The notes beneath the pieces were generated by a model. The model was not told the origin of the DNA. It saw only the letters and a program-made list of their open reading frames with translations, and made no database searches. Positions 55,680 through 57,943 of a stretch of DNA of 64,000 nt are shown one piece after another (position 1 is the first letter of the stretch; each line of letters begins with the position of its first letter). The stretch comes from an uncultured Deferribacteraceae bacterium (GTDB lineage Bacteria > Chrysiogenota > Deferribacteres > Deferribacterales > Mucispirillaceae): the NCBI GenBank assembly GCA_947039395.1, contig CAMQYS010000001.1, positions 62,001 through 126,000 of the forward strand, read 5' to 3'. The position numbers were made by a program, and so were the translations under genes.

Positions 55680-55717
55680 GAGGTGGATAGTTTTTGGACT
55701 ATTCGCCTCTTTTTTTA
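55680..55717 (+). terminator. Intrinsic terminator of the aldolase gene
   Basis: GAGGTGGATAGT pairs with ACTATTCGCCTC over 12 positions (two G-U pairs) around a short loop, followed by a run of eight T. It lies 125 bases past the stop. Confidence 0.92.
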
Positions 55718-55899: not shown

Positions 55900-56442
55900 A
55901 TGATTAGTGATATAATTTCTGTTTTAGGATTTTTGGGTAAAATTAATGATAAAGCCGATAGGGAACTTAAAGAAAAAGAGCTTTTTAATGCTACTAAAAA
56001 TATAATAATTGATTTTATTGAAACTAGCATAAAATTAATGAATGATAAAAGTAACAACAAACAATATGTAATTGGTATAAAAAGTAACGGACATATGCCA
56101 CATATCACAATGATCATTGCTGATAAAAAAGAAGATATGATATGGGATATTACTAGAATAGAAATAGCAAATAAATATAAATTTACAAAGAAACAAGAAC
56201 AAAATATCATATCGATAATTATTAATATGCCCCCAACGGTATATAATGGAAATTTATTTAGTTCTCGAGATGATAAGCTGTATATGTTTAAGGTTACAGA
56301 AATAATTTCAAACTCAATTCAGATAGATGAAGTAAATAATTATTACTATAGCCCAACTGCTGGAATAGTAAAACGATTAGAAGAGTTAAAACAAGGTGAT
56401 TGGGATTCTTATATTATGACTTCTATTTTAGAACTTGGTTAG
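55900..56442 (+). CDS. Unknown protein, 180 residues
   Basis: AAAGGAG lies 6 bases before the ATG. The N-terminus is helical and may be amphipathic (MISDIISVLGFLGKINDKAD) with no signal peptide. The middle part is beta-like (YVIGIKSNGHMPHITMIIAD, DMIWDITRIEIANKYKFTKK). The C-terminus is YYSPTAGIVKRLEELKQGDW. No family recognised. It precedes the paralogue pair at 56.5-57.7 kb but has its own spacing. Confidence 0.55.
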   Translation: MISDIISVLGFLGKINDKADRELKEKELFNATKNIIIDFIETSIKLMNDKSNNKQYVIGIKSNGHMPHITMIIADKKEDMIWDITRIEIANKYKFTKKQEQNIISIIINMPPTVYNGNLFSSRDDKLYMFKVTEIISNSIQIDEVNNYYYSPTAGIVKRLEELKQGDWDSYIMTSILELG

Positions 56443-56488
56443 CCTCTCACAAACCTATAACCTCTACCAACATAAACCACTGATAGAC

Positions 56489-56517
56489 TTGATATAAAAA
56501 ATAATATATAATAATAT
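56489..56517 (+). promoter_or_regulatory. Predicted promoter shared by duplicated genes, copy 1
   Basis: TTGATA (56489-56494), a 17-base spacer and TAATAT (56512-56517). It is followed by AAGCAAGGTTTTA. The same order GACTTGA ... AAAGCA-GGTTTT recurs before the second paralogue. Confidence 0.5.
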
Positions 56518-56559
56518 ATAAAGCAAGGTTTTAAAAGTAAATTGCCATAGGAGAAACTT

Positions 56560-57030
56560 ATGATAAAAATAATGACTCAAATAGTTAAAATTGCACCCAT
56601 ACTTGTGGCACTATTTTCCGTCTTTATAACTTTAGTCACTTTTCTTACTCTACGAAGTGGTGTTAAAAACTGGAGAGTAAGTAAAACTTTAAAATATTTT
56701 AAAAATTTAAAATCTGAACAAAAACAACTTTTAAAGATCTTGCATAATAATAAAGATAACAAATATAAAAAAATAGCTTGCTATAACTATTTTGATGAAC
56801 AAGAAACAATCTTAACATTACTAGAAAATGGTAAACTAGAGCAATCTATATATAACGATCTCATTAAACCACAGATAATTGAGTTTTGTACCATAAATAC
56901 AATAAGTATCTATATCGCAGAAATACAAACTAATATTAACAACAATATACTATCTAAAAATACTTATAAATATCTGATAAAACTTATTAATGAACATAAT
57001 CAAAAGAAAATAATAATCACTGCTAAGTAA
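56560..57030 (+). CDS. Unknown membrane-anchored protein, paralogue 1
   Basis: 156 residues with one N-terminal membrane segment (IAPILVALFSVFITLVTFL) followed by a conserved cytosolic part. The stretches TLKYFKNLKSEQKQLLKIL and KIACYNYFDEQETILTLLEN, and YNDLIKPQIIEF, recur in the gene at 57225-57698. The layout recalls DUF4760-like proteins, but no family is claimed. GGAGAAACTT precedes the ATG. The frame stays open for 34 codons past its stop. Confidence 0.6.
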   Translation: MIKIMTQIVKIAPILVALFSVFITLVTFLTLRSGVKNWRVSKTLKYFKNLKSEQKQLLKILHNNKDNKYKKIACYNYFDEQETILTLLENGKLEQSIYNDLIKPQIIEFCTINTISIYIAEIQTNINNNILSKNTYKYLIKLINEHNQKKIIITAK

Positions 57031-57153
57031 GTAAAATTAAATAAAATAATATCTCAAATATATGAAACAAAAACTTTTAAAAATAAAGTAAATAATCCTG
57101 TTAATAATATTAAAACTAAATACAATGAAAATAAATAATAGCTGCTAATAGAC

Positions 57154-57182
57154 TTGAGACGAAAATTGATGTATGATAAGAT
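57154..57182 (+). promoter_or_regulatory. Predicted promoter shared by duplicated genes, copy 2
   Basis: TTGAGA (57154-57159), a 17-base spacer and TAAGAT (57177-57182), then AAAGCACGGTTTTA, matching the layout of copy 1 at 56489-56534. Confidence 0.45.
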
Positions 57183-57224
57183 TTAAAGCACGGTTTTACG
57201 CTTAATTTATTCTGGAGAACATTA

Positions 57225-57698
57225 ATGATAGAAGCAATTATTGCAGTAATAAAAACTGAGCCACTTCAAGTAACAACAATCACTGTACTTATAACTATCT
57301 TTACTTTTATTGCTATAAAAAGCGAATTGAAACATTGGAGAATAAATAAAACATTAAAATATTTCAGAGATTTAAAACATGAACAACAACAATTATTATA
57401 TGTTTTAAAGGGTAATAAAGAACCTCAATATAAAGAAATTGCTTGCTATAACTATCTTGATGAGCAAGAAAAAATTCTAAATTTGATGGCAAATGGAAAA
57501 TTACAATATTCCCTATTTAATGATCTAATTAAACCTATGATAATTGAATCTATTAACATGAATATAGTAAACACATATATTATAGAAATTAATAAAGAAA
57601 ATCTTACTTTAAATCCAAATGAAATTAGTTATCCTCTTATGTTTCAATTTATAATGGATAATAACAACGATAGAGTAAATATGAGCAAAGAGATCTAA
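57225..57698 (+). CDS. Unknown membrane-anchored protein, paralogue 2
   Basis: 157 residues, close paralogue of the gene at 56560-57030: one N-terminal membrane segment (VTTITVLITIFTFIAI), then NKTLKYFRDLKHEQQQLLYV, EIACYNYLDEQEKILNLMAN and FNDLIKPMIIES. The two differ mainly in the last 40 residues. GGAGAACATTA precedes the ATG. Function unknown. Tandem duplication took the promoter and leader along. Confidence 0.6.
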   Translation: MIEAIIAVIKTEPLQVTTITVLITIFTFIAIKSELKHWRINKTLKYFRDLKHEQQQLLYVLKGNKEPQYKEIACYNYLDEQEKILNLMANGKLQYSLFNDLIKPMIIESINMNIVNTYIIEINKENLTLNPNEISYPLMFQFIMDNNNDRVNMSKEI

Positions 57699-57943
57699 AG
57701 ACTGTAAAACTTAAATGAGTTCACTATAAATAATATAATTTAATATTAAAAATATATGAAATCGTTACGGCATCAATATTTAAATTAGTTAGACGATAGT
57801 TAATATGAGATGACTAAACATTATCAATAGTAACCTAAAAGCATAGCTATTCTAATAAAATAACACCATAAATAATATTAATAAATATCTTAATAATATA
57901 CTCTGTCTCATTAATACTCTCAATCAACCTATCATGTTAAAAT

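Follow-up and report, generated by a model that had tools for sequence, protein, structure and literature searches.

Two adjacent genes in the window, the 64-kb stretch of DNA analysed here, almost certainly represent groups B1 and B3 of an old tandem array of three genes that belongs to a single genus. Copy 1 (156 aa, group B1) occupies 56560-57030 and copy 2 (157 aa, group B3) occupies 57225-57698, both on the forward strand, and both were defined by ORF calling, BLASTP, an alignment of the eight known copies and a protein tree. The two products share a predicted architecture of one N-terminal membrane helix followed by a cytosolic alpha-helical domain. Profile comparison and predicted structure make a distant relationship to the DUF4760 proteins, carried by phages, fairly probable.

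BLASTP alignment of the two products gave 46% identity over 153 aa (E 2e-47), and each gene is preceded by a TAGACT-N17-TATRAT site, bearing out the original prediction of tandem paralogues with a duplicated promoter. That prediction also described a small membrane-linked system of two genes; hydrophobicity and the structural model agree with small, membrane-anchored products, but the two-gene unit does not hold, as the sister genomes carry an array of three copies. The window derives from a 2.1-Mb genome in 64 contigs (G000). In the sister genome G002, the three copies (L016 4466, 5062 and 5785) come after fba and gene A, and are followed by an extra ORF, a small Cys-rich ORF and dapB, in that order. 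In the sister genome G003, three copies lie on a 5-kb contig ending in dapB, dapA and dapF. The flanking genes, class II fructose-bisphosphate aldolase (fba), dapB, dapA and dapF, were identified by NCBIfam matches over the cut-off. The genome context of the homologues, proposed earlier as a check, placed the array beside dapB in all three genomes that have copies (G000, G002 and G003).

The protein tree of the eight copies from three genomes revealed three groups. B1 contains copy 1 and the first genes of the sisters, B2 contains the middle genes of the sisters, and B3 contains copy 2 and the third genes of the sisters; the B2 and B3 forks are each supported at 100/99, and the B1 fork at 89/89. 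Judged from this tree, B2 probably predates the species split and was then lost from the window, the deciding fork having a support of only 89/89. No B2 coding remnant was detected by blastn in the 194 nt between the window copies, a stretch that matched only the B3 upstream region, apart from short and weak matches. All eight array copies are open reading frames.

A profile of all eight copies, used to search for the shared core, recovered array genes from three of the 50 genomes searched in the phylum, each of which belongs to the genus of the window; the remaining 47 gave no array relatives. Three of the four genomes of the genus (G000, G002 and G003) thus carry copies. No copy was found in the fourth, G001, where the fba contig ends about 100 nt past fba and the dapB contig about 690 nt past dapB; because both contigs end nearby, the array of this genome may sit in an assembly gap. 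Viral contigs and plasmids yielded no relative of the array genes in scans seeded by short patterns or one sequence, which detect close relatives only, and phages yielded just two matches (E 2 and 3) in a seeded scan of the same reach. A seeded scan of genome contigs, again covering close relatives, found relatives solely in two sister MAGs, and an earlier scan of genome contigs with a two-row alignment found nothing. No phage-like genes were recognised between fba and dapB in the window.

Other genes also lie in the fba-dapB interval. Gene A (180 aa, 55900-56442, forward strand, defined by ORF calling) has no Pfam family and no PADLOC match at E 10, and is syntenic and 60% identical in G002. 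Its clear relatives are limited to 2 of the 50 genomes, those of the window and G002, with two further weak matches in G002; the G003 contig ends before the corresponding position. Gene A is a possible partner of the array, or possibly another orphan of the same interval. Downstream of copy 2, window positions 57838-57913 are what is left of a small Cys-rich gene whose product begins with a signal-like stretch; about 76 bp from its 5' part survive, with 83% identity to the G002 sequence (E 8e-16). This gene is open beside dapB in G001 (L021), G002 (L016 6920-7228) and G003 (L017 2654-2974). The extra ORF of G002 between the array and dapB (150 aa, L016 6303-6755) is absent from the window, has no Pfam family over the cut-off, and contains GSTDKGKTS, which by eye is P-loop-like. 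A strong hairpin resembling an intrinsic terminator (13 pairs followed by seven T) lies after fba at 55680-55709, is also present in G002, and marks the left edge of this fast-evolving interval.

Searches of Pfam, NCBIfam and PADLOC did not place the array proteins in any known housekeeping family: copies 1 and 2 had no Pfam match over the cut-off, none in NCBIfam, and none in PADLOC at E 10. The family is therefore unnamed, as originally predicted, in that none is assigned over a cut-off, but it probably has relatives, resembling phage-borne DUF4760 in profile and predicted fold. PHROGs returned weak matches of the window copies to function-unknown families (phrog_28543, E 0.0066; phrog_35549, E 0.26; phrog_35889, E 0.012), and a search of solved structures by sequence gave no significant match (best E 1.5 and 0.064).

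DUF4760 corresponds to PF15956 in Pfam, with a gathering cut-off of 25 bits, and to phrog_2284 in PHROGs. Copy 1 scored 15.4 bits against PF15956 (E 0.022), under the 25-bit cut-off, and copy 2 gave no match even at E 10. Sub-threshold matches were obtained for five of the eight array members (best E 0.0036), and none for the other three. In a Pfam search of the 50 genomes, the array genes were absent from the DUF4760 matches over the cut-off, and the window copies were not listed at all. The array proteins thus fall outside Pfam membership, and we call them DUF4760-like. An ORF on contig 3 of G000, in what appears by eye to be a flagellar gene cluster, scored 18.3 bits for DUF4760, above copy 1. 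As a relative of DUF4760 this ORF was rejected, its score being read as a chance helical match; because such an unrelated-looking ORF scores as well, the sub-threshold Pfam scores were taken as a lead only.

DUF4760 proteins were gathered from G030, a genome of the same order, from two plasmid records and from four phages; all seven exceeded the cut-off and all seven matched phrog_2284. Viral contigs contained 58 DUF4760 loci, of which 39 were read and 22 kept, giving with two others an alignment of 24 rows. Profile comparison with the 7-row DUF4760 alignment was not significant (hhalign probability 1.75%, 40 columns). Profile-profile comparison with the 24-row alignment gave a score of 26.5 over 109 colinear columns, extending from the membrane helix to the C-terminal part, with an hhalign probability of 13.8%. 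The score of 26.5 exceeded all of 100 column shuffles (largest 22.4), in which the first 40 columns were shuffled separately from the rest, and also the reversed profile (16.4).

As a control with real proteins, the same DUF4760 profile was compared one by one with the 61 window ORFs of at least 120 aa. Copy 1 ranked first (26.4, 110 columns) and copy 2 second (19.0, 29 columns), the latter barely exceeding the other window ORFs, the best of which reached 18.7 over 5 columns. When the eight members were scored singly, three exceeded 26, and the B2 protein of G002 reached 15.3, within the range of other window ORFs. The invariant residues of the DUF4760 alignment are T42, L94, N95, E98, E111, K115 and W156. 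The best-kept DUF4760 motif, the signature LN-x-YE with a downstream DE, is matched only in part by the window family, which has no invariant LN, DE or W; E82 of the window family falls near the DUF4760 YE position in the 24-row profile alignment. Of the two controls, the flagellar-cluster ORF lowers the case for a relation to DUF4760, and the ranking of the 61 ORFs raises it.

AlphaFold models were obtained for the window family (copy 2 with 8 rows, mean pLDDT 76) and for DUF4760 (22 viral-contig proteins as rows, pLDDT 88). Helices were predicted at residues 2-11, 13-63, 67-89, 95-110, 113-125 and 137-155 in the window family, and at residues 2-9, 12-50, 53-67, 73-76, 85-105, 111-140 and 147-158 in DUF4760; the helix order is alike and the breaks are placed differently. 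The membrane helix, judged by hydrophobicity, covers about residues 13-33 and is followed by a Lys/Arg-rich stretch, and an N-terminal membrane helix with a helical bundle is present in the predicted models of both families. Separate searches of a viral structure library returned A0A3G8F6F1, an entry listed without a name, first for both models, with a probability of 1.00 and TM-scores by query of 0.62 (window family) and 0.65 (DUF4760). The next-best listed viral row had a probability of 0.84 and 0.16, respectively. The E values of the first match were weak (0.042 and 0.021). A Foldseek search of the PDB with the window model remained at chance level (best E 1.1). A second look at the PDB gave plant EDS1-PAD4-ADR1 immune complexes as top chains for both models (Z 9.0, 147 residues, 7.8 Å for the window family; Z 10.2, 120 residues, 3.1 Å for DUF4760), a likeness that lies below the tool's stated chance level among helical bundles and was rejected.

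Many proteins combine a membrane helix with a bundle, and much of the above would also fit a genus-specific orphan family that is unrelated to DUF4760 and resembles it through this generic layout: none of the eight members reaches the Pfam cut-off, copy 1 scores below the ORF of the G000 flagellar cluster, which is apparently unrelated, both hhalign probabilities are low, and the second look at the PDB was filled by unrelated helical proteins. Against this stand a profile score that beats every shuffle, the first and second ranks of copies 1 and 2 among the window ORFs, and the same first match in the viral structure library for two separate models. On balance we regard an unrelated orphan family as rather unlikely, and distant relationship of the array proteins to DUF4760 as the reading to be favoured with some caution.

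The promoter of copy 1, TAGACT-N17-TATAAT, is located at 56484-56512, and that of copy 2, TAGACT-N17-TATGAT, at 57149-57177, both on the forward strand; the first was assigned from conservation before six of the eight array genes, and the second likewise from conservation before array genes. The spacing from the -10 element to the ATG is 47 nt in both copies. The GACTTGA word originally noted ahead of the -10 is present at both sites (56486-56492 and 57151-57157), but the layout is better read as TAGACT-N17-TATRAT, GACTTGA being the end of the -35 element TAGACT plus TGA. Exact matches to TAGACT-N17-TATRAT in the 64-kb window number only two, one before each copy; with one mismatch allowed there are 3, compared with 3.58 expected in shuffles, and promoter-like sites in this A+T-rich region number 22, compared with a shuffle mean of 21.8. 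Since the site counts match shuffles, the case for the promoters rests on conservation across the array genes. TAGACT-N17-TATRNT precedes five of the eight genes across the three genomes, a sixth has TAGACT-N17-TAAACT, and the two sister B3 genes are without TAGACT. A reading as a regulon was rejected: TAGACT-N17-TATRNT is not over-represented (9 matches in G000 versus 16 in the backwards control), and the promoter thus marks common descent rather than a regulon.

The leaders, with starts placed from the position of the -10 element, extend over 56519-56559 for copy 1, containing AAAGCAAGGTTTTA and an AGGAGA ribosome-binding site, and over 57184-57224 for copy 2, containing AAAGCACGGTTTTACGCTTAAT at 57185-57206 (both forward strand). 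Alignment of the two leaders scored better than 500 of 500 base shuffles. The AAGCA-GGTTTT leader that had been proposed as copied with the gene is therefore partly common to both copies, but that of copy 1 is closer to B3-type leaders (32/46, 33/44 and 32/46) than to the leaders of its own orthologues (26/44 and 26/40). The leader word AAAGCAMRGTTTTACGCTTAAT, with up to three mismatches, occurs once each in G000, G002 and G003, always before the B3 gene, and at the same tolerance is absent from G001 and the backwards control. An RNA element was considered and rejected, as folding of the eight leaders gave z-scores from -2.53 to 1.38, with one of eight (G002 B2) below -2. The B2 leaders of both sisters contain a hairpin before the ribosome-binding site (L016 5022-5047 and L017 4261-4290); the hairpin sequences, UAAUGAGGU/ACCUUAUUA and AAGUAAGG/CCUUAUUU, are partly different, and one of the two has a z-score below -2.

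The eight-copy alignment contains 23 invariant columns, with LIKP as the sole run of four. The stretch IACYNY-DEQE, taken as invariant from the window pair, did not survive the wider comparison: only I72, Y77 and E82 are kept among the eight copies, and its first motif reads IACYNY in both window copies, ISFYNY in sister B1 and IACSNY in sister B3. In the second stretch, NDLIKP, the LIKP part is kept in all eight copies, but ND is not.

For comparison of rates, the last 45 alignment columns were defined as the tail and the rest as the core. The window paralogues have a pN of 0.49 in the tail versus 0.21 in the core, in line with the strong C-terminal divergence originally described. Comparison of orthologues shows a faster tail in each of the three B3 pairs (0.27-0.35 versus 0.12-0.15 in the core) and in one of three B1 pairs (0.23 versus 0.15); the two remaining B1 pairs and the single B2 pair show no such difference. 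This pattern, read from the alignment, is compatible with a paralogue-specific tail; no sign of positive selection on the tail was found. Orthologue dN/dS is 0.14-0.38 in seven of seven pairs, indicating purifying selection, with a partly saturated dS of 0.6-1.6, and dN/dS between the two window copies is 0.55. The window copies are 59-63% identical to their sister orthologues, compared with 97-98% for fba and 89-91% for dapB between the same species.

Copy 1 resembles copy 2 against its own two agreeing orthologues at 26 of 104 sites, all within alignment nt 61-360, and copy 2 resembles copy 1 against its agreeing orthologues at 19 of 93 sites. A run-length permutation for the window pair was not significant (p 0.48), and polarising by B2 split the 26 copy 1 sites into 10 with the window state, 8 with the sister state and 8 mixed. 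Gene conversion between the window copies is suggested by the leader and the 26 shared sites; ancestral retention would account equally well for the shared sites, given that the tree groups G002 and G003 as sisters.

The fixed place beside dapB in three genomes, the purifying selection and the conserved sigma-70-type promoters would all suit an accessory protein, peculiar to this lineage, that serves the cell envelope in a process such as division, secretion or motility and has no phage link. We find this possible but doubtful: the genes are confined to one genus, their copy number is 2 or 3, and their orthologues diverge far more than fba and dapB, which sets them apart from most housekeeping genes of the envelope. 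It is highly improbable that the copies are mobile-gene duplicates in decay and without present function, since despite a degraded neighbour gene in the same interval of the window and the absence of B2 from it, all eight copies are open and the low orthologue dN/dS largely refutes decay, even with a dS that is partly saturated.

DUF4760 genes occur singly in phages or phage-like regions in the six annotated records. In all six regions the gene starts 320-1095 nt past the previous listed gene, with incomplete gene tables for the plasmids, and protein numbering suggests an unlisted gene inside the 1095-nt gap of the Alteromonas phage. Both listed neighbours are on the other strand in three of the six (Kingella, L050; Acinetobacter phage, L051; Alteromonas phage, L052). 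Two of the six have an integrase near the DUF4760 gene, directly beside it in L052 and one gene away in L051. Portal and parM flank the gene in L053 and L054. A PADLOC search of the 22 DUF4760 proteins gave a match for one at E 6.5e-4 ('Effector' model, 2TM), and three weaker families. In G030, about 700 bp separate the DUF4760 gene from what by eye resembles a toxin-antitoxin pair of the ParE/RelE type (L037 259-734 and 1441-2121).

Taken as a whole, our best explanation, which we hold tentatively, is a chromosomal three-gene array of DUF4760-related single-pass membrane proteins, with an exclusion-type activity as the likeliest role. In the predicted model, a short N-terminal helix would be followed by one membrane helix running into a long helix. 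By the positive-inside rule, the Lys/Arg side of a membrane helix faces the cytosol; because the Lys/Arg-rich stretch follows the membrane helix, the topology would be N-out, C-in, and the helical bundle would lie at the cytosolic face, much as in DUF4760. The bundle may bind a partner at the inner membrane face, and in each paralogue the C-terminal part may contribute to this binding in its own way. The chromosome could have captured, and then multiplied, a gene for a moron-like accessory protein of exclusion type.

In temperate phages, accessory genes that stand alone frequently modify the host or keep other phages out. Exclusion is proposed because the DUF4760 genes are solitary and accessory, and lie in phages or phage-like regions with room for a promoter of their own. 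We know of no exclusion activity for DUF4760, and an activity in accessory, moron-like phage exclusion, argued by analogy, is unlikely enough to be named only as a candidate. Still more speculative, and improbable in its full form, is the conversion of a phage DUF4760 gene into a chromosomal exclusion family. Each of the three paralogues, equipped with a promoter and tail of its own, would then act against a different phage or target, and gene A might supply a cytosolic partner.

DUF4760 is already known as an uncharacterised family; what is new here is a divergent, DUF4760-like tandem array on a chromosome. Paralogues retained in a chromosomal array would demonstrate that a DUF4760-type protein can become a fixed bacterial trait, and they form a small, testable gene set. 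Otherwise, the array would be one among many lineage-specific membrane-protein families.

The nearest known system is DUF4760, which is named in a table of a Serratia genomic island, the accompanying passage stating no function. The DUF4760 signature is LN-x-YE followed by DE, and the window family has YNYxDEQE and LIKP instead; no window-family member is at the Pfam cut-off; and the DUF4760 genes in annotated records are single, whereas the window family forms a chromosomal tandem array. Most DUF4760 members share with the array proteins a length of about 150-180 aa, and both families have a short helix at the N-terminus, a single membrane helix followed by Lys/Arg, then a long helix and a helical bundle. 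They are also linked by the 109-column colinear profile match and the same first viral structural match. The superinfection-exclusion proteins, for example SieA of P22, are membrane-linked prophage products with accessory functions, and would be comparable to the array proteins by functional analogy only.
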